From Patiria pectinifera (taxonomy: Eukaryota; Echinodermata; Asteroidea; Valvatida; Asterinidae), in contig CM057136.1 of NCBI GenBank assembly GCA_029964075.1, positions 12,400,001 to 12,464,000 on the forward strand: a DNA stretch of 64,000 nt. The letters run 5' to 3'. The notes under the pieces were generated by a model that was not told the origin of the DNA, did not search any database, and saw only the letters and a list, made by a program, of their open reading frames with translations. Numbering within the stretch: position 1 is the stretch's first letter; each line of letters opens with the position of its first letter. Both the position numbers and the translations under genes were made by a program. Shown here one piece after another: positions 5,118-55,032 of the stretch.

Positions 5118-10047
<4,930 letters not shown>

Positions 10048-15061: not shown

Positions 15062-16606
15062 TACGAAAGCCCTGTAGTGCCATAGAGATTTTTTTCTCGA
15101 AGTTCGTTTTGAGGAGATTTTTTTTTCTCGAAGTTCGTTTTTAGGAGATTTTTTTTCTCGAAGTTCGTTTTGAGGAGATTTTTTTTCTCGAAGTTCGTTT
15201 TGAGGAGATTTTTTTTCTCGAAGTTCGTTTTGAGGAGATTTTTTTTCTCGAAGTTCGTTTTGAGGAGATTTTTTTTCTCGAAGTTCGTTTTGAGGAGATT
15301 TTTTTTCTCGAAGTTCGTTTTGAGGAGATTTTTTTTCTCGAAGTTCGTTTTGAGGAGATTTTTTTTTCTCGAAGTTCGTTTTGAGGAGATTTTTTTTCTC
15401 GAAGTTCGTTTTGAGGAGATTTTTTTTCTCGAAGTTCGTTTTTACGAGATTTTTATGAAGTTTTATGAAGTGACGTAGCCCCTAAAGGGACATCCAAAAT
15501 TATTTTTTTATCTCGTGCGCACGACATAATATCTCGTGCGCACGAGATAATTATCACGTGCGCACGACATATATCTCGTGCGCACGACATATCTCGTGCG
15601 CACGACATACATCTCATGGAATGTCGGACGCTTCGCCCCTTTTCCACGTCGCCCCATGTCACTTCGCCCCTAACCACATCGCCCCATCCCCACTTCGCCC
15701 CATCCCCACATCGCCCCATCCCCACTTCGCCCCATTCTCACTTCGCCCCATTCTCACTTCGCCACATCCCCACTTCGCCCCAGCTTTTACATGTAAAAAA
15801 AAATCTCATCTAAATGTATTTTATTGGCTTAAAAACAATTCCAACAGATTCACTAATTGCTAAGCAACGGAAAGAATTAGCCCACCAATATTGACCAAAT
15901 GAACAATTCATAACAAACCTCTCAAGCTATCACTCTCCGCTACCGAGAAAAAAAGCTTGAAGTAAAAGATCCAACTTTGTTCCCAACCCGGCTATACCAA
16001 CCCGTCTCCCACTTATCTGAGAACGACAATACCAATCTACATGGGGCGAAGTGGGGATGGGGCTAAGTGGGGATGGGGCGAAGCGGGGATGGGGCGAAGT
16101 GGGGATGGGCGAAGCGGGGATGGGGCGAAGTGGAATTGGGGCGAAGCGGGGATGGGGCGAAGTGATTAGGGGCGAAGTGACATGGGGCGACGTGGAAATG
16201 GGGCGAAGCGTCCGACACCCATCTCATGCGCACGAGATATATGTCGTGCGCACGAGATATTATGTCGTGCGCACGAGATAAAAAAATAATTTTGGATGTC
16301 CCTTTAGGGGCTCCGTAACTTCATAAAACTTCATAAAAATCTCCTAAAAACGAACTTCGAGAAAAAAAATCTCCTCAAAACGAACTTCGAGAAAAAAAAT
16401 CTCCTCAAAACGAACTTCGAGAAAAAAAATCTCCTCAAAACGAACTTCGAGAAAAAAAATCTCCTCAAAACGAACTTCGAGAAAAAAAATCTCCTCAAAA
16501 CGAACTTCGAGAAAAAAAATCTCCTCAAAACGAACTTCGAGAAAAAAAATCTCCTCAAAACGAACTTCGAGAAAAAAAATCTCTATGGCACTACAGGGCT
16601 TTCGTA
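15062..16606. mobile_element. 1.5-kb fold-back element with tandem-repeat arms (TU/FB-like)
   Basis: Terminal inverted repeats begin TACGAAAGCCCTGTAGTGCC and the insertion is flanked by a perfect 6-bp duplication, ATAAAC, at 15056-15061 and 16607-16612. The left arm (about 15088-15450) is some twelve copies of a 30-bp unit (GTTTTGAGGAGATTTTTTTT then CTCGAA); the right arm (about 16340-16580) has about eight copies in inverse orientation. Inside are self-complementary TCTCGTGCGCACGAGA clusters (15513-15613 and 16222-16282). A second inverted pair of G/C-rich repeats (ACTTCGCCCCATCCCC) follows at 15640-15785 and 16038-16215. The non-inverted core of about 250 bp is AT-rich. Apparent reading frames are repeat artefacts. 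Arms of tandem repeats are the hallmark of FB (Drosophila) and TU (sea urchin) elements. Confidence 0.8.
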
Positions 16607-18067: not shown

Positions 18068-18150
18068 CCAAAGCTTTACACGGGTTGGACTCGAACCCAC
18101 GACCTTTTGCTTGTTGGTGCAAACGTCTTACCACTCAACCACCGAGATTG
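18068..18150 (-). repeat. tRNA-like / SINE head fragment
   Basis: On the minus strand a B box GGTTCGAGTCC (18087-18097) matches the consensus exactly, preceded by an A-box-like GTGGTTGAGTGGT about 50 nt upstream. The acceptor stem does not pair well, so a functional tRNA is unlikely. Confidence 0.5.
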
Positions 18151-20389: not shown

Positions 20390-23300
20390 TCATGGAGAGC
20401 TAGCTAGTCTGGCAACAACGTCCCACAAGTTTGAAGTCCGTAGACCCAAAACTCGTGGAGAAAATGTGACATAAGCAAGAATATTTTTCTTGTTTCTGTG
20501 TGTAAATTGCCATAGAGTAGGCTGTCAGCGGGCTTCACTCCGTGGTGTGCTTACTTGCTATATCTCGCCTTGACGGTATCTTGTTATGAGAAATTCCTGA
20601 TTTTTTTGACATGTATGGAGAGTTAGCTAGTCTGGCAACAACGTCCCACAAGTTTGGAGTCCGTAGACCCAAAACTCGTGGAGAAAATGTGACATAAGCA
20701 AGAATATTTTGCCCGAGTTTGTTTCTGTGCGTAAATTGCCATAGAGTAGGCTGTCAGCGGGCTTGAATCCGTGGTGTGTTTACTCGCTATATCTCGCCTT
20801 GACGGTATCTTGTTATGAGAAATTTCTGATTTTTTTGACATGTATTGAGAGCTAGCTAGTCTGGCAACAACGTCCCACAAGTTTGAAGTGCGTAGACCCA
20901 AAACTCGTGGAGAAAATGTGACATAAGCAAGAATGTTTTACCCGAGTTTGTTAGTTTGTTTCTGTGCATAAATTGCCATAGAGTAGGCTGTCAGCGGGCT
21001 TCACTCCGTGGTGTGCTTACTTGCTATATCTCGCCTTGACGGTATTATATCTTGTTATGAACAATTCCTGATTTTTTGGACATGTATGGAGAGCTAGTTA
21101 GTCTCGCAACAACGTCCAACAAGTTTGAAGTCCGTATACCCAATACTCGTGGAGATAATGTGACATAGGCAAAAAGATTTTGACCGAGTTTGTTTCTGTG
21201 CGTAAATTGCCATTGAGGCTGTCAGCGGGCTTCACTCCGTGGTTTGTTTACTCGCTATATCTCGTGTTGACTGTATCTTGTTATGAGAAATTTCTGATTT
21301 TTTTTGACATGTATTGAGAGCTAGATAGTCTGGCAACAACATCCAACAAGTTTGAAGTCCGTAGATCCAATACTCGTGGAGAAAATGTGACATAAGCAAG
21401 AATATTTTGCCCGAGTTTGTTTCTGTGCGTAAATTGCCATAGAGTAGGCTGTCAGTGGGCTTCACTCCGTGGTTTGTTTACTCGCTATATCTCGTCTTGA
21501 CGGTATCTTGTTATGAGAAATTTCTGATTTTTTGGACATGTATTGAGAGCTAGTTAGTCTGGCAACAACCGTTCCAACAAGTTTGAAGTCCGTAGATCCA
21601 ATACTCGTGGAGAAAATGTGATATAAGCAAGAATATTTTGCCCGAGTTTGTTTCTGTGTGTAAATTGCCATAGAGTAGGCTGTCAGCTGGCTTCACTCCG
21701 TGGTGGGTTTACTTACTGTATCTCGTCTTGACGGTATCTTGTTATGAGAAATTCTTGATTTTTTGGACATGTATGGAGAGCTAGTTAGTCCGGCAACAAC
21801 GTCCAACAAGTTTGAAGTCCGTATACCCAATACTCGTGGAGAAAATGTGACATAAGCAAGAATATTTTGCCCGAGTTTGTTTCTGTGCGTAAATTGCCAT
21901 AGAGTAGGCTGTCAGCGGGCTTGAATCCGTGGTGTGTTTACTCGCTATATCTCGCCTTGACGGTATCTTGTTATGAGAAATTTCTGATTTTTTTGACATG
22001 TATTGAGAGCTAGCTAGTCTGGCAACAACGTCCCACAAGTTCGAAGTCCGTAGACCCAAAACTCGTGGAGAAAATGTGACATAGGCAAAAAGATTTTGAC
22101 CGAGTTTGTTTCTGTGCGTAAATTGCCATTGAGGCTGTCAGCGGGCTTCACTCCGTGGTTTGTTTACTCGCTATATCTCGTGTTGACTGTATCTTGTTAT
22201 GAGAAATTTCTGATTTTTTTGACATGTATTGAGAGCTAGCTAGTCTGGCAACAACGTCCCACAAGTTCGAAGTCCGTAGACCCAAAACTCGTGGAGAAAA
22301 TGTGACATAGGCAAAAAGATTTTGACCGAGTTTGTTTCTGTGCGTAAATTGCCATTGAGGCTGTCAGCGGGCTTCACTCCGTGGTTTGTTTACTCGCTAT
22401 ATCTCGTCTTGACTGTATCTTGTTATGAGAAATTTCTGATTTTTTGGACATGTATTGAGAGCTAGTTAGTCTGGCAACAACCGTTCCAACAAGTTTGAAG
22501 TCCGTAGATCCAATACTCGTGGAGAAAATGTGATATAAGCAAGAATATTTTGCCCGAGTTTGTTTCTGTGTGTAAATTGCCATAGAGTAGGCTGTCAGCT
22601 GGCTTCACTCCGTGGTGGGTTTACTTACTGTATCTCGTCTTGACGGTATCTTGTTATGAGAATTCTTGATTTTTTGGACATGTATATGGAGAGCTAGTTA
22701 GTCTGGCAACAACGTCCAACAAGTTTGAAGTCCGTATACCCAATACTCGTGGAGAAAATGTGACATAAGCAAGAATATTTTGCCCGAGTTTGTTTCTGTG
22801 CGTAAATTGCCATAGAGTAGGCTGTCAGCGGGCTTGAATCCGTGGTGTGTTTACTCGCTATATCTCGCCTTGACGGTATCTTGTTATGAGAAATTTCTGA
22901 TTTTTTTGACATGTATTGAGAGCTAGCTAGTCTGGCAACAACGTCCCACAAGTTCGAAGTCCGTAGACCCAAAACTCGTGGAGAAAATGTGACATAGGCA
23001 AAAAGATTTTGACCGAGTTTGTTTCTGTGCGTAAATTGCCATTGAGGCTGTCAGCGGGCTTCACTCCGTGGTTTGTTTACTCGCTATATCTCGTGTTGAC
23101 TGTATCTTGTTATGAGAAATTTCTGATTTTTTTGACATGTATTGAGAGCTAGCTAGTCTGGCAACAACGTCCCACAAGTTCGAAGTCCGTAGACCCAAAA
23201 CTCGTGGAGAAAATGTGACATAGGCAAAAAGATTTTGACCGAGTTTGTTTCTGTGCGTAAATTGCCATTGAGGCTGTCAGCGGGCTTCACTCCGTGGTTT

Positions 23301-23645
23301 GTTTACTCGCTATATCTCGTCTTGACTGTATCTTGTTATGAGAAATTTCTGATATTTTTTGACATGTATTGAGAGCTAGATAGTCTGGCAACAACGTCCC
23401 ACAAGTTCGAAGTCCGTAGACCCAATACTCGTGGAGAAAATGTGACATAAGCAAGAATATTTTGCCCGAGTTTGTTTCTGTGTGTAAATTTCCATAGAGT
23501 CGGCTGTCAGCGGGCTTCACTCCGTGGTGTGTTTACTCGCAATATCTCGTCTTGACGGTATCTTGTTATGAAAAAAAATCCTGATTTTTTTGACATGTAC
23601 GAAGAGCTTTTTAGTCTGGCAACAACGTCCAACAAGTTTGGAGTG
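20390..23645. repeat. 229-bp satellite array, about 14 monomers with higher-order structure
   Basis: The word CTAGTCTGGCAACAACG (with variants) recurs near 20405, 20630, 20857, 21097, 21327, 21558, 21785, 22016, 22244, 22470, 22701, 22929, 23157, 23386 and 23615, spacing 225-240 bp. Monomers contain the sequences around AACTCGTGGAGAAAATGTGA and GCTGTCAGCGGGCTTCACTC. Two adjacent blocks of 912 bp (starting near 21462 and 22374) match each other better than neighbouring monomers do, so four-monomer units have been duplicated. The minus-strand frames in it recur because the repeat recurs; they are not genes. Confidence 0.9.
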
Positions 23646-23647
23646 AT

Positions 23648-26600
23648 TTTTTTCAAAATGGCGATGAGTGATCATATTCGGATGGAAATTTCTCCCAACT
23701 TTTTACGACCGGCCGAAGTCGCTGGCCCGATTTTTCTTCGCACATCCCCGCCTGGCTCGCTCTTCAAATCTGTAGCTAGCAGTTTGCAGTTTGCCACTCT
23801 GCAAACACCCCTCTACCGCTGTGCCACTGGCCAGAGGTGGATGAAATTAGTGGCGCACCCGGGGGGGGGGGGTGTTGACCCCTCCCACTCGTAGAGGTTG
23901 TTAATATTTTTATATTTTTTTTCGGGGGCGGGGTTTCATTTTTGTGGTCTACGAATTGACCGATATGTATGTGGAATATTTTCGAGTATTATAATAGGGG
24001 TGTATAAGTGGCGCCACCAACGTCAAAATATTTTCCCCTCCCACAAAAAAACACCCAATTTGTTTGGAAAAAAAACCCTCAAAATTGTGAGCACCCCCCC
24101 CCCCCCAGCTAAATCCTGGGTGCGCTATACTGGGTAAAATAGGCGCCAAAGATATCGGGAAAGTAGGAACAAAAATTTCCAGATAGTTTGCAGGCCTTTA
24201 CACAGTTTGAAAAGTTTGTTTTAAATTGCGCGCTCCAGTTCTGAAATTGCGCACACTATTCAAAACGAATAAGGATTCGAGCATCCCGCTCTTCAATCGA
24301 AAATCCAAATTAATTAATTGAACCAAAAAATCAGCTCATGTCGATGTCAAGCATTAAAAAAAAACCTTTTTTTTCTGATGCCAAAATTTCGGGCGAATTT
24401 CTTTGGATTCTTTTTAACTTCTACAAAATTTACCAATTGACGTAAAATGAACGGTTACCGTAGTCAAATTGATCGAACGAAACTTAATTTTGATAATAAT
24501 CAATTATTTAATATTGATAGATTCACGACGTATACCTTTGATTCCTTTTTAAATACTACCGGAGACCTGCCGGGCAGATGTAAATATCCAACTTAAGCAA
24601 AGTTAAAAAAAAATAATTAGAGGATAAAAACAAAATCAAAAAGTTATGTGCTAGCCAAGCTTTCAGGGGTCGGTCTGAGCCATAACAATGCCCCAGCCAA
24701 CCCCTTAGTTCTCTTCCGGGGTCTCGGTGTCCCCGACCAATACACACTTCCTTCCCTGTCCATCCATGTAACCCCGGAGGGCCAGGCGCCATGTAAAAGC
24801 AAAGAGCTAAGGGAGGAACAGGGCGGCACCCTAAGCCCTGATCCTCCGAGTGGACCACATGCCCTGAACCTGTACGAAGACGCCAACCTGGAACTCACGG
24901 ACAGTACCAGCCGCAGAGCTTACCGATTAAGCTAAGGTACCGTTGGTGTTTGACAACGGGAAATTAACCATCTTGTGCTCAATGTACTTAGAGTTACGCA
25001 ACAGTGAACACTATTATTATGCAGGCTTTTTTGAGCTATCGGGTGCGTCCAGGGGCGGATCCAGGATTTTGCGGGGGGGGGGGTCCGGGCACCTTGGATA
25101 TTTATATCCGATTATTGAGGACAGGGCGGACCGTGTTATTATTATATTTGATTAAAAATTATTTATTTTTCGTGTGTGTTTGACCGGTGGGGGGGGGGGG
25201 GGGGTCGTCCCCCTCTGGATCTGCGCCTGACTTCTACTATTTGTATTTGGACAGATACAGATTTTCAACTCCGTCACGACTATTTCAACATTATCACGTC
25301 TTCAGAAAATGAAACGATAATTTGTTTTGACGGATTTGTTTCCTCATCCTTAATTCTATCAACAACCAAAAACAAACATTTAAACGTAGATGAAAACAAC
25401 ATTAACCAGGACACCACATTACACTAGGGGGCCCTGTTCATGGTGTCCATATTTTATGTTTCGTACGATAACGCTTCTCTCGTAACCCCGCCTTGCTAAC
25501 AGGGACTAGGGCGCTGGGCCGGGAATTAAGGGCTGATGCCATTCACAGAATCTTGTGAAGGAAGTGGGGATGGCATTCTGGGTAAGATATCATGTCCTAT
25601 TATAGCCTTACATTTTTGATGAAATTTGGCCCCAAAATGACTTTCCTCAAAACGATGCAGAAATTCCTTTAGAGGTAAAAGGAGCATCAACCAACCTGCA
25701 AACACCCAATATTTTGCAGATTCGGGTAAAAATCATAGTTTTTTTGAGAAAAAAATCCTAATTTTTGACTGCTTTCACCCCATATTTTCGTCCAAATTTC
25801 ATTTTGGAAAGCACATCTGTCCAGAAATCGCATTGAAATAAGTTCTAGGGTCCTATGGGCATCTTTCCAGCAAGTTTGAAGAAATTTGATTTTTCGGCCA
25901 ACATTGGAAAAAATGCAAGGGGTTAGCCTTACTTTTTTGATGAAATTTGGCCCAAATATGACTTTTCTCAAAACGATGCAGAAATTCCTTTAGAGGTAAG
26001 ATGAGCATCAATCAACCTTCAAATATCCAATATTTTGCAGATTTGGGCAAAAATCATGAATTTTTAGAGGAAAAAAAATCTCAGTTTTGACCAATTTCAC
26101 CCCAAATTTTCGTCCAAATCTCATTTGAAAAGTGCATCTATCCAGAAATCGAATTGAAATGTGTTCTAGGGTCCTATGGGCATCTTTGCTGCAAGTTTGA
26201 AGAAATTGGATTTTTTGGGCCAAAATTTGAAAAAATGCAAGGGTTAAAGTCAAAATTATAGCTGCGGCTGTTTAAAGGGTTGAGGCGGTAAAATGGGTCC
26301 GAAGTAGCATACGCCGGCCAAATCACGATTTGCATGCCCTCAAATTCTTCAGTACTTGAGCATATTGTGGGCCATGCACTTGAGGGTTCGTAAACAGTGA
26401 GGGTGGAAGCCGTGCACAGGAACGTGAGCTTGTATTTGTGTGCAATCCGCATACAATTGGGGCTCTAAAAGCGCTCTATTTTGCATTGGAGTGTAGGCGC
26501 CGTTTTTCAAAATGGCGATGAGTGATCATATTTGAATCTCCCAACTTACAATCAGATTACCACCAAAAAATGAGGAAAAATAGAAAGACGATCCAACTAA

Positions 26601-32600: not shown

Positions 32601-35600
32601 CCGTGCACAGGAACGTGAGCTTGTATTTCTGTGCAATTCGCATAAAATTGGGGCTGTAGAAGCGCTCTATTTTGCATTGGAGTGTAGGCGCCGTTTTTCA
32701 AAATGGCGATGAGTGATCATATTTGAATCTCCCAACTTACAATCAGATTACCACCAAAAAATGAGGAAAAATAGAAAGACGATCCAACTAAGCTTTAATT
32801 TTAATGCATGTTTCGAACACCTGATAGAGAGCAAATTGTGATTATTTTCTTGAATTTCTAAAGTGGGGAAATTTATCATTGGAGTCGATGGCAATTCATT
32901 GCACCTATAGGGGCACTGTTGAAAGCGGACACTCATAGACTCTCTTTGGCAGTAGGTGGCGCTCTTCATCCCTGCCGACAGACGAGACAAGCTTTTTACG
33001 ACCGGCCGATGTCGCTGGCCCGATTTTTCTTCGCACATCCCCGCCTGGCTCGCTCTTAAAATCTGTAGCTAGCAGTTTGCAGTTTGCCACTCTGCAAACA
33101 CCCCTCTACCGCTGTGCCACTGGCCAGAGGTGGATGAAATTAGTGGCGCACCCGGGGGGGGGGGGGTTGACCACTCCCACTCGTAGAGGTTGTTAATATT
33201 TTTATATTTTTTTTTTTCGGGGGCGGGGTTTCATTTTTGTGGTCCACGAATTGACCGATATGTATGTGGAATATTTTCGAGTATTATAATAGGGGTGTAT
33301 AAGTGGCGCCACCAACGTCAAAATATTTTCCCCTCCCACAAAAAAACCACCCAATTTGTTTGGAAAAAAAAACCAAAATTGTGAGCACCCCCCCCCCAAG
33401 CTAAATCCTGGGTGCGCTATACTGGGTAAAATAGGCGGCAAAGATATCGGGAAAGTAGGAACAAAAATATCCAGCTAGTTTGCAGGCCTTTACACAGTTT
33501 GAAAAGTTTGTTTTAAATTGCGCGCTCCAGTTCTGAAATTGCGCACACTATTCAAAACGAATAAGGATCCGAGCATCCCGCTCTTCAATCGAAAATCCAA
33601 ATTAATTAATTCAACCAAAAAAATCAGCTCATGTCGATGTCAAGCATTAAAAAAAAACCTTTTTTTTTCTGAGGCCAAAATTTCGGGCGATTTTTTTTGG
33701 ATTCTTTTTAACTTCTACAAAATTTACCAATTGACGTAAAATGAACGGTTACCGTAGTCAAATTGATCGAACGAAATTTAATTTTGATAATAATCAATTA
33801 TTTAATATTGATAGATTCACGACGTATACCTTTGATTCCTTTTTAAATACTACCGGAGACCTGCCGGGCAGATGTAAATATCCAACTTAAGCAAAGCAAA
33901 AAAAAATAATTAGAGGATAAAAAAAAAATCAAAAAGTTATGTGCTAGCCAAGCTTTCAGGGGTCGGTCTGAGCCATAACAATGCCCCAGCCAACCCCTTA
34001 GTTCTCTTCCGGGGTCTCGGTGTCCCCGACCAATACACACTTCCTTCCCTGTCCATCCATGTAACCCCGGAGGGCCAGGCGCCATGTAAAAGCAAAGAGC
34101 TAAGGGAGGAACAGGGCGGCACCCTAAGGCCAAAAAAAAAAGTCTCCGGTTTCTGGTATGCGCGCGCGTCGCCGTAGCCATGCGCGTCGGCAAAATGAAA
34201 AAGTTTTTTTTTTCAATACAAGATGATGTTTCAAAACCGCCAAACTCACTGGTTTGACTGGAATTCTGCTGCTGCACAATTTTAACGTGTTTTTAGATGG
34301 GGTTATGATCGAGAATAAGATTTATGTGGCCTCTCTGGACTCCCATATATTTGCACTAAGTTTAGTCGGGCACCATTTGCAGTCATCAGCCGACATTTGA
34401 AGCCAAAAAAAAAAACAGGTAAAAAAAAAAAAAGCCGCGTCGCCGCACCACTTTTGGGGCAAGCTCCATACCAGAAACCGGAGACTTTTTTTTTTTGGCC
34501 TAAGCCCTGATCCTCCGAGTGGACCACATGCCCTGAACCTGTACGAAGACGCCAACCTGGAACTCACGGACGGTACCAGCCGCAGAGCTTACCGATTAAG
34601 CTAAGGTACCGTTGGTGTTTGACAACGGGAAATTAAACATCTTGTGCTCAATGTACTTAGAGTTACGCAACAGTGAACACTATTATTATGCAGGCTTTTT
34701 TGAGGTATCGGGTGCGTTCAGGGGTGGATCCAGGGTTGTTTGCAGGGCGGGGGGGGTGGGGGTCCGGGCACCTTGGATATTTATATCCGATTATTGAGGA
34801 CAGGGCGGACCGTGTTATTATTATATTTGATTAACAATATTTATTTTTCGTGTGTGTCTGACCGGTGGGGGGGGGGGGGGGGTTCGTCCCCCTCTGGATC
34901 CGCGCCTGACTTCTACTATTTGTATTTGGACAGATACAGATTTTCAACTCCGTCACGAATATTTCAACATTATCACGTCTTCAGAAAATGAAACGATAAT
35001 TTGTTTTGACGGATTTGTTTCCTCAAAAATAATGTGAACAGTACGTTCTCATCCTTAGGCCTAATTCTATCAACAACCAAAAACAAACATTGAAACGTAG
35101 ATGAAAACGACATTAACCAGGACACCACATTACACTAGGGGGCCCTGTTCATGATGTCCATATTTTATGTTTTGTACGACAACGCTTCACTCGTAACCCC
35201 GCCCTGCAAACAGGGACTAAGGCGCTGGGCCGGGAATTAAGGGCTGATGCCATTCACAGAATCTTGTGAAGGAAGTGGGGATGGCATTCTGGGTAAGATA
35301 TCATGTCCTATTATAGCCTTACATTTTTGATGAAATTTGGCCCAAAAATGACTTTCCTCAAAACGATGCAGAAATTCCTTTAAAGGTAAAAGGAGCATCA
35401 ACCAACCTGCAAACACCCAATATTTTGCAGATGCGGGTAAAAATCATAGATTTTTTGAGAAAAAAATCCTAATTTTTGACTGCTTTCACCCCAAATTTTC
35501 GTCCAAATTTCATTTTGGAAAGCACATCTGTCCAGAAATCGCATTGAAATGTGTTCTAGGGTCCTATGGGCATCTTTCCAGCAAGTTTGAAGAAATTTGA

Positions 35601-38600
35601 TTTTTCGGCCAACATTGGAAAAAATGCAAGGGGTTAGCCTTACTTTTTTGATGAAATTTGGCCCAAAAATGACTTTTCTCAAAACGATGCAGAAATTCCT
35701 TTAGAGGTAAGATGAGCATCAATCAACCTTCAAATATCCAATATTTTGCAGATTTGGGCAAAAATCATGGATTTTTAGAGGAAAAAAAATCTCAGTTTTG
35801 ACCAACTTCACCCCAAATTTTCGTCCAAATCTCATTTGAAAAGTGCATCTATCCAGAAATCGAATTGAAATGTGTCCTAGGGTCCTATGGGCATCTTTGC
35901 AGCAGGTTTGAAGAAATTGGATATTTTGGGCCAAAATTTGAAAAAAATGCAAGGGTTAAAGTCAAAATTATAGCTGCGGCTGTTTAAAGGGTTGAGGCGG
36001 TAAAATGGGTCCGAAGTAGCATACGCCGGCCAAATCACGATTTGCATGCCCTCAAATTCTTCAGTACTTGAGCATATTGTGCGCCATGCACTTGAGGGTT
36101 CGTAAACAGTGAGGGTGGAAGCCGTGCACAGGAACGTGAGCTTGTATTTGTGTGCAATCCGCATACAATTGGGGCTCTAAAAGCGCTCTATTTTGCATTG
36201 GAGTGTAGGCGCCGTTTTTCAAAATGGCGATGAGTGATCATATTTGAATCTCCCAACTTACAATCAGATTACCACCAAAAAATGAGGAAAAATAGAAAGA
36301 CGATCCAACTAAGCTTTAATTTTAATGCATGTTTCGAACGCCTGATAGAGAGCAAATTGTGATTATTTTCTTGAATTTCTAAAGTGGGGAAATTTATCAT
36401 TGGAGTCGATGGCAATTCATTGCACCTATAGGGGCACTGTTGAAAGTGGACACTCATAGACTCTCTTTGGCAGTAGGTGGCGCTCTTCATCCCTGCCGAC
36501 AGACGAGACAAGCTTTTTACGACCGGCCGATGTCGCTGGCCCGATTTTTCTTCGCACATCCCCGCCTGGCTCGCTCTTAAAATCTGTAGCTAGCAGTTTG
36601 CAGTTTGCCACTCTGCAAACACCCCTCTACCGCTGTGCCACTGGCCAGAGGTGGATGAAATTAGTGGCGCACCCGGGGGAGTGTTGACCCCTCCCACTCG
36701 TAGAGGTTGTTAAGTTTTATATTTTTTTTCGGGGGCGGGGTTTCATTTTTTTGGTCCACGAATTGACCGATATGTATGTGGCATATTTTCGAGTATTGTA
36801 ATAGGGGTGTATAAGTGGCGCCACCAACGTCAAAATATTTTCCCCTCCCACAAAAAAAAACACCCAATTTGTTTGGAAAAAAAAACCAAAATTGTGAGCA
36901 ACCCCCCCCCCCCCAAGCTAAATCCTGGGTGCGCTATACTGGGTAAAATAGGCGGCAAAGATATCGGGAAAGGAGGAACAAAAATATCCAGCTAGTTTGC
37001 AGGCCTTTACACAGTTTGAAAAGTTTGTTTTAAATTGCGCGCTCCAGTTCTGAAATTGCGCACACTATTCAAAACGAATAAGGATCCGAGCATCCCGCTC
37101 TTCAATCGAAAATCCAAATTAATTAATTGAACCAAAAAAAATCAGCTCATGTCGATGTCAAGCATTAAAAAAAAACCTTTTTTTTCTGAGGCCAAAATTT
37201 CGGGCGAATTTTTTTGGATTCTTTTTAACTTCTACAAAATTTACCAATTGACGTAAAATGAACGGTTACCGTAGTCAAATTGATCGAACGAAACTTAATT
37301 TTGATAATAATCAATTATTTAATATTGATAGATTCACGACGTATACCTTTGATTCCTTTTTAAATACTACCGGAGACCTGCCGGGCAGATGTAAATATCC
37401 AACTTAAGCAAAGTTAAAAAAAAATAATTAGAGGATAAAAAAAAAAATCAAAAAGTTATGTGCTAGCCAAGCTTTCAGGGGTCGGTCTGAGCCATAACAA
37501 TGCCCCAGCCAACCCCTTAGTTCTCTTCCGGGGTCTCGGTGTCCCCGACCAATACACACTTCCTTCCCTGTCCATCCATGTAACCCCGGAGGGCCAGGCG
37601 CCATGTAAAAGCAAAGAGCTAAGGGAGGAACAGGGCGGCACCCTAAGCCCTGATCCTCCGAGTGGACCACATGCCCTGAACCTGTACGAAGACGCCAACC
37701 TGGAACTCACGGACAGTACCAGCCGCAGAGCTTACCGATTAAGCTAAGGTACCGTTGGTGTTTGACAACGGGAAATTAAACATCTTGTGCTCAATGTACT
37801 TAGAGTTACGCAACAGTGAACACTATTATTATGCAGGCTTTTTTGAGGTATCGGGTGCGTTCAGGGGTGGATCAAGGTTTTTTTTGCAGGGGGGGGGGGT
37901 CCGGGCACCTTGGCTATTTATATCCGATTATTGAGGACAGGGCGGACCGTGTTATTATTATATTTGATTACAAATTATTTATTTTTCGTGTGTGTCTGAC
38001 CGGTGGGGGGGGGGGGGGGGGGTGGTCCCCCTCTGGATCCGCGCCTGACTTCTACTATTTGTATTTGGACAGATACAGATTTTCAACTCCGTCACGACTA
38101 TTTCAACATTATCACGACTTCAGAAAATGAAACGATAATTTGTTTTGACGGATTTGTTTCCTCAAAAATAATGTGAACAGTGCGTTCTCATCCTAAATTC
38201 TATCAACAACCAAAAACAAACATTTAAACGTAGATGAAAACAACATTAACCAGGACACCACGTTACACTAGGGGGCCCTGTTCATAATGTCCATATTTTA
38301 TGTTTCGTACGATAACGCTTCGCTCGTAACCCCGCCCTGCAAACAGGGACTAGGGCGCTGGGCCGGGAATTAAGGGCTGATGCCATTCACAGAATCTTGT
38401 GAAGGAAGTGGGGATGGCATTCTGGGTAAGATATCATGTCCTATTATAGCCTTACATTTTTGATGAAATTTGGCCCCAAAATGACTTTCCTCAAAACGAT
38501 GCAGAAATTCCTTTAGAGGTAAAAGGAGCATCAACCAACCTGCAAACACCCAATATTTTGCAGATTCGGGTAAAAATCATAGATTTTTTGAGAAAAAATC

Positions 38601-39163: not shown

Positions 39164-42100
39164 ATGAGCTTTCTGTTGTGAGTATTAAGCCTTAAGGTGG
39201 AGTTTTTTTTTGAGTTTTTGACACTGGTTTGATCGTCAGACTGCAGTGCCATGACCAGTGCAGGAACCAAGGTAAACCATGGTCAAACCATTGGCGATTG
39301 TGTAGTGTAGGGCCCCTGTTTTGTTTTGATCAAATTAGAGTCAAAAATATTGGAAAAATTCTGCTAACCGGACACCACTTTTTTCAATTAATTTTCTAGC
39401 GCCAAAAGTTACCTCTTTTATAGTCCGAGTAACTTGGACCCAACTTATCGCCTTTTTTAACATTTGGACATGGTCTGGCGATAGTAAGGTCCAAGCTAAT
39501 ACCGCGACCTCGACAACACAATACCAAAAACCAACATTTTCCAACAAAAAACATCAGATTTCACCTTTAAAACGGCCTCCAAATGACTACATATGCCACC
39601 TGAGGTACAAGTAGACATCGATAATTAAGATGGTTGTACTGAAGTTTACTTACGATCCGGAAAAAAAGTGAAATTTTCCGTTCATTTCGGAGAGCTCCCC
39701 TCGCGATCTTGAACACGTTAAATTTCCGATCGTGTTTAATGTTTGAACGACGCGATTTCTTCTACATGCCCAGCGTACATTCGATGGTCCCCGTATCCCG
39801 AGTGTGATTCCGTTACCGAGCGCGCGATGCACCATTATGATAATGAGTAGACTGGATCACGTTTGTAAACACATGTGCATTTCAAACGATAATAGGGAGT
39901 CGGGAACTAGCGCAGCTTTTATGGCGGGTACCAGTTCAAGCTGGTTCCCGATTCCCTTTTACAGTTCGAAATGCACATGTATGTTTACAAACGTGACTCA
40001 TTATCATAATCGATGCATCGCGCGCGCTCGGTAACGGAATCGCACACGGGATACGGGGACCATCGAATGTACGCTGGGCATGTAGAAGAAATCGCGTCGT
40101 TCAAACATTAAACACGATCGGAAATTTAACGTGCTCAAGATCGCGAGGGGAGCTCTTCGAAATGAACGGAAAATTTCACTTTTTTCCGGATCGTAAGTAA
40201 ACGTCAGTACAACCATCTTAATTATCGATGTCTACTTGTACCTCAGGTGGCATATGTAGTCATTTGGAGGCCGTTTTGAAGGTGAAATCTGATGTTTTTT
40301 GTTGGAAAATGTTGGTTTTGGTATTGTGTTGTCGAGGTCGCGGTATTAGCTTGGACCTTACTATCGCCAGACCATGTCCAAATGTTAAAAAAGGCGATAA
40401 GTTGGGTCCAAGTTACTCGGACTACCTCTTTTATGGTTAATTCCCTCCACTTTCCCTCCTCTACTCTCACCCCGTCCTTTCCTTAATTTCTATTTATCAA
40501 TCAATCGCTCACTTCCTCAAGATTCGAACCTCGGACGCTTGCTTGATACACGAGTCTCTTAACCGCTAGGCCGCGCACGATCGCTGTTGCAATGATCAAT
40601 CTTTGGACGTATTTGAAGTATCCATTGAAATAAACTAAATATTCGGCAGGATTACCATATGCGAAGTTCACTAATTTCCCTCTGTATTGACTAACAAGCC
40701 CCCAGATAGCAATTTCATGTCATCAAAGTCAATTTGAGCAGTGAGAAAATACAAGCATTTTCTTAGAAAACACTTAGAATTTTTCAGTCCACTCTCATAT
40801 GGTTTGTACACAGAGTGTTGAGTGAACTTCGTATATGGAAATCTTTCCTTTATTAAATATCGGAACAGAATCCACTCGGGATGTTTGGGTGCAGTATACC
40901 TGAGTATGTCAAGAAGTACCATACGGAGTTTAGGGGAAAACTGTGCAGCGGTTTTCTGGCAATAGAATACAATTTGATGTACATTTTTGTACTTAGTAGT
41001 CATTTCGTAAAAGTCAAAAAATTTGTCAACATAGCATATCAACGCGAACTACACAGTACACTATTACCACATCAACATATGTAAATGATTTCGTTATACA
41101 TTTTGCCCCTAAATTCTGTGAGTAAATGCGATCAATGGTGCTGTCAGAAGAGCCCACCTCGGAGCACCTAGCTGTGTACTCATGTACAGCTAGGCACCCT
41201 GTGATTGGCCTGTCTGACACCACCATTGATATGAACTATAGTCACCGCATTTACTCTGTTTCCCGGGGTGAGTGGAACAAACACTTCCAAACATATTAAT
41301 CTAACACATGCACAGATGGGGCTTGAGCCCCTCCGCGGCCTGCGTCTGTGGTACCCCTGAACAGACTGCACACCACATCCTGTTTGAGTGCCCGGACCTC
41401 GGACCGCCTGGAGATCTCCATATAGATCTTACCAACCCAACCCCAGAGACTGTCACATGGCTACATCAGCTGCACGAAATTGTATAGTGGTCAGCAAATC
41501 ATACGAAAGAAGAAGAATCTAACACATAATACTGCAAAAGCAAGTATTACTTAGACAAAACTAAAATCAATAAATAAAGGGATAAATAAAGTCGTAAAAA
41601 TGTTTTTTAGTAAAAAATACGCAGGAAACCTTCAATAGTAAAAAATAAAAATGTGAGTCGCAAGAAAAGTCAAAGTGGGCTTATTATGAAATTAAATGAA
41701 ATGAAATGTTAAGTACAGATCTAAACGTGTAACTTCCAACTGCCAGAAAAATAAAAATAATTAACTTAAATAAATAGCATGTGAAAGGCAAAAAAAAAAA
41801 AAAATGTTTAGCATCCCCGCCTGCTTCCTTTTTGGAGGCTGCCTCCTTTTTTTTTTTTTTTTTTTTTAAACCCCAAAAATGCTACATTTTTAACAGTGAC
41901 ATCATTTTGGCCTCATTATCTGTTGGATCTAGCCCATATAAAGCTGCTATTTCATTTCCTGACAGCAATGGCAGCAATCTTAAGGAAGCCCAGTGGGGTG
42001 GCCATTTTGGAGGGGAAAAAAAAGGGTCTCCCCGCTTCCTTTTTTTTCAAAAAGGCAGGACACTAAACACGTTTTTAAAATTTTGCCTACATGTAATATT

Positions 42101-45100: not shown

Positions 45101-48100
45101 CAATGTTACTGTTGTAAGTTGGTCGAGCACTATAAAATATTGTGGTCACATGTAAATATTTCATGTGGTTTCAAGACAAAAAGTTCAAAATCAAATTGTT
45201 GCCACAAGGCTAAATAGAAATGAAAAGAAAAAAAAACCTTTTGAGAATCAGCATCAGATGTTGGTGGAAGTACACAATGTAGCATAGATGCAGACATAGA
45301 TCAGTGAGAGAAAAAATATCTACAAGTCTGCGTGTGTATTGTTTTGTGTAGTTCTGTGTTGATTTTTTTTTATCGACAGAATTAGGTTGTTCGTTCAAAT
45401 GCACAATTGTAAAACGTGGATGAATTCTTTTTTAAAACAGATATAGAATTTGTGTACTGTCTTAAAAAATTCCATCGAGCACTGATAAAGTGATATGCAA
45501 GGATGTGTGATATCTGAGAATTCTTTTCTATTCAATTATTCATCAAATTGAACTGCCAGGTTTGGTTACCATAGACTTAGAGTCACTGTGTGGGTCAAAA
45601 GAACACCCAACCACCAGCCTGAGGCAGAATAACAGATCAGGGTCAAAGGTCAACATCAGGTCACCTTATACAATGTACATGTCTCTATAAGGCCATCGCT
45701 TTTAACGAAACTGAATTTCCTTTGTGGAAATCACGCTGAGCTTTGAAATAAGAAACTGCACTCTTGTTTCTATCGTGTTGACCTTGATACAATTGAAATT
45801 CCACATCTGAAATATCTTGGAATCATTCATTAAATATCTTTAAATTCAGGGGCCAATTTCATAGAGCGGCTTAAGCACAAAATTTGCTTAAGCACAAAAA
45901 CGTCTTGTTTAATAAAATCAGGTTACCGGCCAAACTCCATGCGATTGTTATGCTAAGTAGACAACAGCTAAATACCAGTCACAAGCAATGTACATCACAT
46001 GGAGTTTTGGCCGGTAACCTAATTTTACTAAGCAATGTTTTTTCGTGCGTAAGCAAATTTTCTGCTTAAGCAGCTCTATGAAATTGGGCCCAGATTGAAC
46101 CTTGGGCAAGATGGAAAGGATGGGAAACTATTTATAGAAGCAGTATCCCAGTTTCGATTAGGCAACATGTAGATATTGCCAGCTTGAAATTGATATTGAA
46201 AGCGCTATAGTGTACACGACATGTAAATGAAACTCTCAATCCAAAATAAGTACAAAATATATTCATGGATATGCTATTTTGTGTTGCAATCCCATCATAT
46301 TTTTTTTCTTGGAAATCAAGATACGCTTTGTTATTTTCACAAGTACATGTAAATTTCCCCTCCTGCCTTTCTGTTTTCTATGAATCTTGTATTAAAGGGA
46401 ATGTACAACATTTGCTTTTGCTGCAATTTTCAGAAATAAATGGATTTGGAGGATTAGCATGTTATAGCAAAAATTGTTAAACTGACTTGTTTCACGTTTT
46501 GGGCTTGTAGATGATGGAAAAACCAAGAAAACCAATCATGTTCTTGTAGTCTGGTTCCCTGACCCCACTTAAGATTAAACGGAGCAATTCATAGACTGGG
46601 GGAATTGTAAGGTCAGAGAGTCAGTCTAGCAGGCTTGTACCATTTCGCAGGTGTGTAGACAATTGCAAAGTAAATGCGAAATAACTAAATAGGAAAAATA
46701 GGAGCAGTTTTTGAAAAAAACCAGTTTTTTCCAGCGCTGGTCGGCCGACCAGCATTTGGAAAAATACAAGTTTTCTTGAAAATGTCAGCTCACCAGGAGC
46801 CACGATTTTAATGGATGCTTTGGACTGTCATTCCCTAACAATATAGTGAAATATTTCGTGATAATTTGATCATTTCGTTTTTTGATGTTTGCAAATGTTG
46901 TATCTTCCCTTTAAAAGGTATCTGTCATCTTCATACAGAATCCAGATAAAAATAATCAGTGAAAGACGTCAGTACTTTGTACATGTACATGTACGCTAAA
47001 AAAAAATAATAATCAGGTTCAATGTACAAAATGTACTAGATCCTGATTAAAATCCAGATTGTTTTGTACATGTATCAGATCAGAGTTAATGATTTGAAAA
47101 AGAGGTCACGAAGGTTCATTCAGCAGAAATGATATTCAGGTTGACCCTTGACATGTGTTTTAATTTAATGTGTACATGTAAATAAAGTACATGTAAATGA
47201 ATATTACGTTTTGCCCTTCACCGACGTATAAACACTGTATACTTACATGAACGTCCCGAGTGAAAGTAGGAAAAATAATGTAAAACGTACATAAACAAAA
47301 ATGTTTTTTGGGGGCATGTCTTTGGTAATGGCATGGGTAACAAAAGAACACAAATAAGTTGGTCCTAACCTTTTTGGGGCCCTGAAAATTATTCTCAATT
47401 TTTTAACATCCAAAAGCTCAGGCACTGAAAGCCACCATCAAAAGTGTCTTTTTGCAATTCTGTTGTGTAAATAGTATTTTGGGGTTTCTAGACATTGTTA
47501 CGCCTTTGGAAGCCACCTCACAATCCTCGCACTCATTAGAAACTCATTGCTTTTTTCTTTAATTTTCTCGGCTCATCTGACCAGCGGCGGGAGGTCGACC
47601 AAGACATTCAAGCCAAAGAAGAACATTCCAGAGGGGACACATCAGTATGAGTTGATGAAACATGCCGAGGCCACCTTGGGCAGTGGCAACCTCAGGCTAG
47701 CCGTGGTCCTACCGGACGGGGAGGATCTGAACGAATGGGTCGCCGTCAATAGTGAGTAGCGGGAGGATCTAGCTGCTTTGTGCAGCTACCATTGAGGGCG
47801 CTGAAATATGGAGATTTGCTCATCCAACTGTAGACTTTTTCAAATCTTGACCTGACATTTCTGAGCTTTTACGTTGTGTTTTTCCGGTGTAGCATGAATT
47901 TATGTTTTATGAAATATGGACGCATTGATGGTATTGCGCACGCTCATGCATAGATAATTAGGAGAGGGACCGGTCACGTGAGAGGGTTTAACCAATAAAA
48001 GGAACAAGAGTCCCATTTTCATACGAGTCCGATTTTCATATGACACCGGCCCCAAAACGCTGTGTCCTTCAACCATGGCAGATAAGCCATGTGTTACAAG

Positions 48101-50147
48101 TCCAAAATCCACCAGTACAATTGGTTGATTTAAAAAAATTTGGTCCTGAAGCATTATGTGAAGCAGTGAGAGTGATGGATTTTGATGGACATGGTCATCT
48201 ACTTAGTTAAAATAAGTAGGGAATTAGGGTTAATGTTGATTGTTTGGTCCATCTTTGGTCTAACCTCTAAGGAAAGTCTTGACTTTTCCCGGCCTCGTTA
48301 ACCAAGGTATAAGATTTCTCACAATTATTTTCGTTTTAGCTGTGGACTTCTTCAATCAGATCAACATGCTGTATGGCACCGTCACAGAATTCTGCATGGC
48401 AGACACGTGTCCTGTGATGTCTGCAGGCCCAAAGTAAGTCATTGAGGGCCCCAAGATGGTCTCATAACACAGTCAATTTTTTTTGTTTTGCTTAATTTTT
48501 TCTCTGTAAGGCCAAAAAAAAAAAAATATTCGGTCTCTGGTCAGACCAAAGTTCCGGAATTGACGTGGCGACGCAGCTTTTTTTTTTCTTTTTTTTTTTC
48601 TTCAAGCTTGGATTGTACAGACAAGGTGGGGTACTATTTTGCTTTTTTGGTGTCCTCATGTACACTGGTGTCCTCCATAATTTGCCTGGGTGCTCTCGAT
48701 CATTTGCCTTGGTGCAATTTCCCATTCCTTGGTGCTCTTTGGTAAAAAAAATTGAGGAGGTGCGGCAATAGAGGTCGCTGTTGGAGCTACCACGGAACAT
48801 TTTGGAAAAAAAAGATTGACGCGCATGATTAAAATCGACGCGCGCGCTGACCAGAGACCGACTTGTTATTTTTTTTTGGCCTAACAAGGCTTAACATGGT
48901 GAAGGCTGGTCAGGTTTGTGCTGAAACCAGAAAAAAAAAAGAAACATACAGGTCAAGTGAAAGGGCAATTGACATGCCTGAATTGTGGTGATGTAAAAGC
49001 AGAGTTCTGGTAATGAGGTCAGAAGTGACGCAGTTCGAGGGAAGAAACTTAATGAAGAAACTCTCACTCTGTAGATGATAGGAGGCAGGGAATTGTCTAC
49101 AGCAGATAAAAATAACCAATGGGAGATGAATGTGAAAGTCCTCAGCAAATTCATTGCCAATACTTGTAGAACAATATCAAGAATGCTGGAGTATCTAACA
49201 GCAAGAAGTTCTTGGGATGCTGCCAAACCCAACACATTTACTCCAATGTAACTTATAAATTTCGAATAGCATTTGATTATGATGTCTATACTTACAGATA
49301 TGAGTACCACTGGGCTGACGGGCAGACGGTCAAGAAACCCATCAAGTGCTCAGCCCCCAAATACATAGATTATCTCATGACGTGGGTACAAGATCAGCTC
49401 GATGATGAGACGATATTCCCATCAAAAATCGGTAAAGTAGATTCCGTAAAGATATCCCCAAATATGGCGGCATCAGAATTACTGTCTATGGCACGCACGC
49501 ATGTGCCTATGGTAGCGGCTGAAGACACTTCTAACTGTTGTGCTACCGCCTGCCATAGTTGAGTTAATTTGGCACAGCCTGTATTTTGTTAGTTTGGCTG
49601 TTCCTATAGACCCCTCTCATAGACAGCCATCTTTGTTGGAAAATAACAACTACGTGTTCAATGCAATCAGGAGTGTGCGCGCAGTGTGCAAAATGTTTTA
49701 AACATGCATGCATGTTGGTCCAAATGTCTTCAAAAGCAATTGAAAGTAGTAAAAATCCGTGCTTACCAACTTCATGAAAGCGGCCAAACACATTGAATTT
49801 AAGAGGTTTCAGCTTCATTGAAAGGCTGATCTTAAGCTGATAATATTTATCTTTTTTTAGCAGCATCTCACAATTTGTTCCCCAATCCCCTTTTCTTCCA
49901 CTCATAAGGCGTGAGTTTTCCGAAGAACTTCTCCACCATTGCCAAGACGATACTCAAGCGTCTGTTCCGGGTCTACGCCCACGTCTACCACCAGCACTTC
50001 ACAGAGATCGTCAAACTCGGGGAGGAGGCCCATCTCAATACCTCCTTCAAGCACTTCATCTACTTCGTCCAGGAGTTCAACCTCATCGAGTCCAAAGAGT
50101 TGGCGCCCCTCCAGGACCTCATTACATTATTTAACGGCAAACCCTAA
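39164..50147 (+). CDS. MOB1: MOB1 kinase activator, five exons
   Basis: MOB1 is the Hippo-pathway scaffold that binds and activates LATS and NDR kinases in the cytoplasm and at the cortex. Coding exons are 39164-39177, 47585-47751, 48340-48433, 49298-49431 and 49909-50147; together 648 nt, 215 residues plus stop, one residue shorter than human MOB1A. The first coding exon is just ATGAGCTTTCTGTT before a GTGAGT donor; it joins phase-perfectly to CGGCGGGAGG to give [15 protein letters not shown], the family N-terminus. Zinc ligands C79, C84, H161 and H166 are all in place, as are the MST-phosphorylated threonines T12 and T35. The C-terminus ends [12 protein letters not shown], different from the vertebrate tail. 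Intron 1 is 8.4 kb and filled with mobile elements; intron 3 holds a Harbinger-like MITE. Confidence 0.97.
39422..40423. mobile_element. 1.0-kb near-perfect fold-back element in MOB1 intron 1 (11-bp duplication)
   Basis: The element is a single palindrome with arms of about 480 bp starting AGTCCGAGTAACTTGG and a short centre near 39925. Perfect 11-bp direct repeats ACCTCTTTTAT flank it at 39411-39421 and 40424-40434. The arms differ only by occasional substitutions, so the insertion is young or the arms are kept alike by gene conversion. No protein is encoded. Confidence 0.85.
40517..40582 (-). repeat. tRNA-like fragment
   Basis: Minus-strand A-box-like GGCCTAGCGGTTAAGAG and B-box-like GGTTCGAATC, spaced as in tRNA genes. 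The acceptor ends do not pair convincingly, so it is probably a SINE head or tRNA pseudogene. Confidence 0.45.
41305..41487 (+). pseudogene. non-LTR retrotransposon, 3' end of the reverse transcriptase ORF
   Basis: The frame ending in TAG at 41485-41487 gives a 59-60 residue C-terminal remnant: [19 protein letters not shown], then [12 protein letters not shown] and a short tail. The C-x-C, H-H, C pattern is the cysteine/histidine motif after the RT domain of I/Jockey-type LINEs. A stop at 41302-41304 closes the frame upstream and no RT catalytic core is seen nearby, so this is a 5'-truncated copy inside MOB1 intron 1. No long A-tail is preserved. Confidence 0.7.
41787..42087. mobile_element. 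MITE, relative of the copy at 63542
   Basis: Ends are GGCAAAA and TTTTGCC. The inner inverted repeat contains TGTTTAGCATCCCCGCC and its complement-like CGCTTCC...AAACACG. The same layout, including CTCCTTTTT and GGCGGCCAT words, recurs at 63542-63864. Target duplication is not clear. It lies in MOB1 intron 1. Confidence 0.6.
42088..43835. other. MOB1 intron 1 spacer
   Basis: AT-rich intronic DNA with repeated GTACATGT words near 43235-43320. I see no coding segment or RNA gene. Confidence 0.4.
43836..44498. mobile_element. MITE with CTGGGCCCAATTTCAT ends, carrying a nested insertion
   Basis: Inverted ends CTGGGCCCAATTTCATGGC and GCCATGAAATTGGGTCCTG. A Harbinger-like element occupies 44043-44410 inside it. 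Sister copies are at 45847-46091 and 53471-53960. Confidence 0.7.
44043..44410. mobile_element. Harbinger-like MITE nested in the preceding element
   Basis: Ends GGCCAAAAAAA and TTTTTTTGGCC with inner inverted GGTCTCTGGTCAG and CTGACCAGAGACC. It is closely similar to 48510-48881. The flanks are TAA on the left and TTA on the right, with a longer direct repeat (TAAGCACAGAATTTCTGC and onward, 44016-44043 and 44416-44443) on each side. Confidence 0.7.
44499..45846. other. MOB1 intron 1 spacer
   Basis: AT-rich intron sequence without recognisable exons, RNA genes or inverted repeats. Confidence 0.4.
45847..46091. mobile_element. MITE with GGGCCCAATTTCATAG-type ends
   Basis: Inverted ends (left CAGGGGCCAATTTCATAGAG; right the complement of CTGGGCCCAATTTCATAGAG) and inner inverted GGTTACCGGCCAAACTCCATG. 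No coding sequence. Confidence 0.7.
46396..46910. mobile_element. Kolobok/T2-like MITE, TTAA duplication
   Basis: Flanked by TTAA at 46392-46395 and 46911-46914. Ends AGGGAATGTACAACATTTGC and GCAAATGTTGTATCTTCCCT are inverted repeats. It is collinear with 12936-13443 and shares its central GGTCGGCCGACC. Confidence 0.75.
46915..47584. other. end of MOB1 intron 1
   Basis: Intronic sequence with ACATGTAC words. The polypyrimidine tract and CCAG acceptor at 47582-47584 precede MOB1 exon 2. Confidence 0.5.
48510..48881. mobile_element. Harbinger-like MITE in MOB1 intron 3
   Basis: TAA duplications at 48507-48509 and 48882-48884 flank GGCC-bounded DNA with inner inverted GGTCTCTGGTCAG. It matches 44043-44410 nearly throughout. 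Confidence 0.8.
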
Positions 50148-54951: not shown

Positions 54952-55032
54952 GGGCTTGATAGCTCAGCTGGTAGAGCACTGGATCGGCAATCCGGAGGTC
55001 GCAGGTTCAAACCCCACTCCAGTTGGTCAAGT
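54952..55032 (+). repeat. tRNA-like / SINE head
   Basis: TAGCTCAGCTGGTAGAGC is a perfect D-arm/A-box, and GGTTCAAACCC resembles a B box. The anticodon stem CTGGA/TCCGG pairs, but the loop has C instead of U before the would-be GGC anticodon, and the T-stem has mismatches. This argues for a tRNA-derived repeat and not an active tRNA. Confidence 0.5.

Follow-up and report, generated by a model that had tools for sequence, protein, structure and literature searches.

A transposed one-kilobase near-palindrome in Patiria pectinifera belongs to a dispersed family whose outer arms change together

Long palindromes are usually thought unstable. How, then, did a palindrome of about one kilobase come to lie in the genome of Patiria pectinifera, and what keeps its two arms alike? 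We analysed a window of 64,000 nucleotides (GenBank assembly GCA_029964075.1, contig CM057136.1, positions 12,400,001 to 12,464,000), in which an earlier note, made from the letters alone, had placed a giant near-palindrome. Self-comparison of the window sequence revealed a near-palindrome of approximately 1.0 kb at that place, in agreement with the arm alignment and with folding against shuffled sequence. The span of the mobile element was determined to be 39421-40424 (1,004 bp) from the arm alignment and from the ends compared over copies, because its terminus is TAGTCC..GGACTA; it starts with TAGTCCGAGTAAC at 39421 and finishes with GTTACTCGGACTA at 40424. The features, in window coordinates, are as follows.

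39164..39177, plus strand: coding start of the putative MOB1 exon 1, with a donor GTGAGT at 39178 (MOB1A query); host gene, outside the element.
39352..39420, no strand: left part of the repeated sequence hit by the insertion, 69 bp including the duplication (match to 904-632 of locus L005).
39412..39420, no strand: left target-site duplication CCTCTTTTA, 9 bp (sequence; ends compared over copies).
39421..39847, plus strand: left outer arm, beginning TAGTCCGAGTAACTTGGACC (direct arm alignment; same arm in 40 scored loci).
39848..39996, no strand: centre, 149 bp, asymmetrical and partly palindromic (arm alignment).
39848-39856: left-only insert TAGACTGGA within the centre (arm alignment).
39897-39924: 28-mer of the centre, counted in the genome.
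39997..40424, minus strand: right outer arm, finishing GGTCCAAGTTACTCGGACTA (direct arm alignment).
40425..40433, no strand: right target-site duplication CCTCTTTTA, 9 bp (sequence; ends compared over copies).
40434..40624, no strand: continuation of that repeated sequence to the right of the element (joined-flank query 132-391, junction at 200).

The outer arms of the window copy were approximately 428 bp long and 98.4% identical, with seven one-arm substitutions in 425 compared columns and a few small indels. The arm length of about 480 bp given earlier was not uniform, as the outer arms are followed by the unequal centre. The two sides of this centre are only partly alike, and one 41-nt stretch was 85% complementary. 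As RNA, the plus strand (998 nt) was predicted to fold as one long hairpin of -866.5 kcal/mol, compared with -265.5 kcal/mol (standard deviation 8.6) for 20 shuffles; the window palindrome is far beyond chance. No open reading frame of at least 130 aa overlapped the element, all 1,004 bp of which are arms and centre.

The duplication around the element had been read as 11 bp. The T before AGTCC and the A after GGACT recurred in copies with different flanks, indicating that both letters are part of the element and that the duplication is 9 bp. Comparison of the ends over copies thus ruled out the 11-bp target duplication, a reading that arose because an A/T happened to match at each side. As for the host gene, a human MOB1A query matched the window at 47556-50141. 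The ATG at 39164 and the donor at about 39178 fit the first MOB1A residues, and the next coding match after this putative exon 1 was at 47556, so that the element would lie approximately 240 bp into a large first intron. To judge from these matches, it looks as if the element sits in intron 1 of a putative MOB1 gene.

Exact matches in the 613.5-Mb host genome numbered 932 for an end 20-mer, 179 for an arm 28-mer, and 117 for the centre 28-mer, and the reversed control of each gave 0. The end count exceeds the arm count at least partly because short members carry the same ends. Two of these, in loci L006 (112 bp) and L098 (125 bp), each had its own 9-bp duplication; the centre was symmetrical throughout in the latter and not in the former. 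L098 lies on contig C1 (G000; 29.8 Mb), and the other end of its hairpin carried a one-base change; on this contig, 53 of the 80 listed exact end 20-mers were within the first 3.1 Mb, many of them without an exact partner, and L098 is the one that was fetched. The arm query, by which copies were selected for similarity to the window's left arm, gave 92 matches at the best 40 of 1,685 first-look candidates. Full elements of 984-1,058 bp were identified at 29 loci with different flanks, and the 11 of the 40 loci that had no end pair 960-1,060 bp apart were left out of this set. Copies with one damaged arm were common. For example, L022 and L025 represent one duplicated site (flanks 99-99.5% identical), and approximately 320 bp of one arm present in L025 are missing from L022.

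Both ends were recognised in 34 of the 40 fetched loci, and an exact 9-bp duplication was present in 27 of them, which stand for 25 sites since L022/L025 and L039/L040 share sites. The remaining seven comprised L014, L020, and L021, read by eye as 10, 10, and 8 bp, respectively, and L004, L010, L031, and L034, with none. At loci with several ends the script chose the pair with the best-matching flanks, so that lengths there were 705 to 1,905 bp. Fourteen further loci gave eight exact 9-bp duplications, one with a single mismatch, and five without, in some of which the fetched stretch did not take in both flanks. A tally of 33 duplications indicated a weak G..CWG..C preference, the symmetry of which arises by construction, as both strands were counted.

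Joined flanks were also compared with the fetched loci, and related sequence running across the junction was found for 10 of 28 full copies, including that of the window. Eight of these unoccupied sites were 85-96% identical and two were 68% and 75% identical; the joined flanks of the window copy matched the element-free 904-632 of L005 at 93.4% over 274 columns. The earlier note had called for a search for other copies with target duplications, and many were found, with clean duplications. The palindrome is therefore a real mobile element. Its family is dispersed, and is marked by common ends, duplications of 9 bp, and related sites without the element. A preference for inserting beside other palindromes was rejected, as no excess was observed at the insertion point: palindrome coverage was 0.07 in the first 100 bp from the insertion and 0.10-0.17 further out (window background 0.03), and another palindrome lay within 60 bp in 6 of 35 copies.

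What moves this element? We consider it a good deal likelier than any other reading that a non-autonomous DNA transposon of the cut-and-paste type, most likely Mutator-like (MULE), has here been reduced to its terminal inverted repeats (TIRs) as a foldback or hairpin, with arms that are homogenised by conversion. The 9-bp duplication and the long TIRs fit MULEs, whose duplications are 8-10 bp, usually 9, and many families of which have long TIRs. No transposase-bearing partner was found over the stretches searched, and MULE membership, which is likely, is judged from the architecture and from the length of the duplication; a 9-bp duplication is typical of MULEs and no proof. A MULE transposase supplied in trans would act on the TAGTCC..GGACTA ends and move the whole palindrome. 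New copies come from transposition of the whole element.

The partner was sought at MULE-domain loci, of which a search of the genome gave 30 from 63 scored candidates. Within approximately 1.5 kb of these 30 loci, blastn yielded no significant palindrome match except at L041, and it gave no further match in the seven loci that were extended to approximately 4-5 kb. No pair of TA.TCC..GGA.TA ends with identical 9-bp flanks was found around a MULE domain, and a search of the seven extended loci for end pairs with duplications gave one A-rich pair at L066 and nothing convincing. When up to 3 errors were allowed in the 13-letter end, many MULE loci were hit, without pairs. In addition, the extended stretch of L048 contained a loose TAGTCC..GGACTA-like pair approximately 135 bp apart, 4.7 kb from the MULE domain. 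The earlier picture of a non-autonomous hairpin served by an autonomous MULE thus holds in that the element is transposed, non-autonomous, and nearly all hairpin, but a MULE with these ends was not found over the stretches searched.

Two kinds of candidate were rejected. The L041/L071 locus (G000 C4:15723400-15731300) is a MULE of Rehavkus-like type; its open frame covers 605 aa, its PHD-finger match stays below the Pfam cut-off, and its inverted ends are minisatellite-like. The match at L041 is a 95-bp hairpin of the family that lies outside the MULE's ends as a separate neighbour, and the MULE's own ends differ: the inverted ends in L071 are ACTCGTACCTTGGACA-like minisatellite repeats with no match to the palindrome. 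Single perfect 80-bp ends were also considered as autonomous candidates, and all 11 that were fetched held parts of both arms in inverted order.

The failure to find a MULE with these ends among the 30 loci would also be expected if the same mobile palindrome were moved by a transposase of another superfamily with 8-10-bp duplications, or by an unrecognised one, and the three loci that read 8 or 10 bp point the same way. We regard this as unlikely, since a duplication of exactly 9 bp, found in 27 of 34 loci, and the foldback architecture fit published MULEs.

We then turn to the arms, for which counts were made over 28 copies, L017 being left out for its poor alignment. The consensus arms agreed at 429 of 429 paired columns, the exception being one A-run of differing length. 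Changes matched in the two arms numbered 99, compared with approximately 1.6 expected for independent arms; the cases are non-independent through shared descent and go back to 23 distinct changes, of which 8 were confined to a single copy and 15 occurred in two or more. One-arm departures numbered 292. The 8 private matched changes compare with 181 private one-arm changes, 67 in the left arm and 114 in the right; left arms appear more conserved here because the copies were picked by left-arm similarity. The mean distance between arms was 2.5% within a copy and 3.7% between left and right arms of different copies, and no re-pairing out of 2,000 reached a value as low as the former. Left arms of different copies differed by 2.9%, hardly above the within-copy value, and right arms by 4.2%, a comparison subject to the same choice of copies. 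These results indicated that the outer arms change together, as is shown by the matched changes. Ongoing arm conversion is modest, as the private counts show. Against a strong effect of this kind, the right arm of the same copy was the nearest, alone or jointly, to the left arm in no more than 6 of the 28 copies. The outer arms would be homogenised by arm-to-arm gene conversion or by mismatch repair of the folded-back hairpin, presumably for the most part in source copies but sometimes in copies already inserted.

Matched changes could also arise without any conversion, if each subfamily had made its own palindrome by inverted duplication of a single arm that differed from those of the others; the 15 of 23 distinct matched changes that are common to at least two copies are in line with this. 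Nevertheless, the two unequal halves of the centre were kept in 28 of 28 copies; the family therefore spreads by movement of the whole element and not by re-making the palindrome from one arm. Matched states also arose inside a lineage, in L039 relative to L040 and in L008 within its group. Independent construction is accordingly quite improbable.

L039 and L040 were compared closely. They have a common target site, and their flanks, compared over 700 bp to the left and to the right, are 98-99% identical, which indicates duplication after insertion. At positions 175, 179, and 357, the arms were mismatched in L040 and in L036, a copy at another site, and matched in L039. The pattern in L039 was as if the right arm had served as template for the left at 175 and 179, and the left arm for the right at 357. 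At 175 and 357, the new base of L039 was found in the changed arm of no other of the 28 copies, which favours L039's own other arm as the donor. The base gained at 179 is that of the consensus and may therefore stem from back-mutation or from conversion by another copy. Overall, the two copies differed at 11 paired columns, 8 of which were one-arm changes. The right arm of L039 carried at 270 a base otherwise present in nine copies of the window's group, so recurrent mutation or between-copy conversion also occurs. One more matched site, 381 in L008, arose within its group. The L039/L040 pair suggests arm-to-arm conversion after insertion, and short two-way arm-to-arm conversion would be the simplest reading of its matched sites together with that of L008.

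Arms so alike can attract mis-mapped reads, and such mis-mapping during polishing could imitate arm conversion. An assembly artefact in the wider sense, with the palindrome or its arm identity a product of inverted duplication or of polishing, is nonetheless very hard to credit in view of the 29 full-length copies with different flanks, the 9-bp duplications, the unoccupied related sites, and the private one-arm changes. It is just as far-fetched that selection keeps the window copy in MOB1 as a functional source of long dsRNA or as a regulatory hairpin, for although its plus-strand RNA is predicted to fold as one long hairpin, the family's ends are at hundreds of other places and nothing was found that singles out this copy.

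Transposition with homogenised arms thus being the preferred reading, the centre has still to be accounted for. Long palindromes without an unequal centre are more easily broken or deleted, which is probably why the unequal centre persists. Together with its escape from homogenisation, this instability suggests that the unequal centre lets kilobase members persist. We tentatively extend this to the whole lineage, in a proposal that we hold possible but doubtful: the arms would be matched, also after insertion, by short two-way conversion tracts, and the unequal centre would escape these and let kilobase palindromes survive and spread, while short members would do without it; of the two short members examined in detail, one was symmetrical through its centre and the other was not. 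If the proposal is true, this family and a second one in the window form a natural experiment on how a genome tolerates long palindromes.

The second family is represented at 6471-7205 by a 735-bp palindrome of the same design, with a 9-bp duplication CTGTGCTTT, 300-bp arms that are 99% complementary, and a centre that is again less symmetrical. Its ends (TACTCCTAG) resemble those of the TAGTCC..GGACTA family (TAGTCCGAG). Its arm gave 41 listed matches at the best 40 of 1,295 first-look candidates, some of them the two arms of one copy; 40 were at 99-100% identity and one was partial at 93%. As only the best candidates were scored, this shows many near-identical copies and not the age of the whole family. 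A further copy, with a 9-bp duplication, was present in L010. An arm of this family near a MULE on contig C697 was rejected as a partner, the palindrome there being cut off on one side.

Several other repeats were observed in the window. A large foldback at 15085-16583 has arms made of mirrored tandem arrays of 30-bp, approximately 20-bp, and 16-bp units, and its outer ends TACGAAAGCCCTGTAGTGCCATA reach slightly beyond. A 249-bp inverted-repeat element (45846-46094) has arms that are 85% complementary. An array of approximately 14 copies of a 229-bp unit occupies 20395-23644, and the same 321-bp unit occurs in two tandem copies each at 25603-26243 and 35314-35955, approximately 10 kb apart. 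A tRNA-Ala (ggc) was predicted by two programs at 54953-55025, and 18081-18144 gave a weak tRNA-like match just above the Rfam cut-off.

The main family provides more than 100 kilobase-class copies in one genome, some truncated, in which the homogenisation and the loss of arms can be read. It allows palindrome tolerance, conversion within palindromes, and the load of hairpins in introns to be studied by counting. Among open-access titles and the opening parts of abstracts, we found no plain report of arm conversion in foldback or hairpin elements, which is weak evidence of absence, and the text of a paper on arthropod MULEs (PMC13359780) is without the words palindrome, foldback, MITE, and hairpin.

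Galileo and Foldback of Drosophila are likewise long-armed, foldback-like DNA transposons, but they belong to the P superfamily and have internally repetitive arms. Rehavkus-type MULEs (PMC6446971) share the 9-bp duplications, and the Rehavkus-like MULE of this genome, L041/L071, differs from the palindrome in its minisatellite-like inverted ends. Muta1 of Aedes aegypti and its derivatives (PMC5225508) are animal MULEs with long TIRs, 8-9-bp duplications, and more than 300 non-autonomous copies; in contrast to our element, which is only arms and centre, Muta1 has a 145-bp TIR with subterminal tandem repeats and a coding interior. The nearest systems found were Tm1 and MuTAnT. Tm1 of root-knot nematodes (PMC3169594) is an animal Mutator/Foldback element with mostly 9-bp duplications and with MITE-like as well as longer members; its arms are largely 13-15-bp tandem repeats, unlike those in the window, and some of its members encode a putative transposase. 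MuTAnT of Medicago truncatula (PMC4486113) comprises MULE hairpins of widely varying size with near-identical arms; their duplications are 9 nt long wherever these could be determined, and many copies are defective, missing part of an arm. It differs in that 90% of its copies are 200-300 bp and that most copies lie in TA microsatellites, whereas the window element is 1.0 kb long and has no such target, and in that it has a related putative autonomous element, which was not found for our family. The suggestion that the family is undescribed may hold for this species; as a kind it is known, since hairpin and foldback MULEs, such as MuTAnT and Tm1, are already in print.
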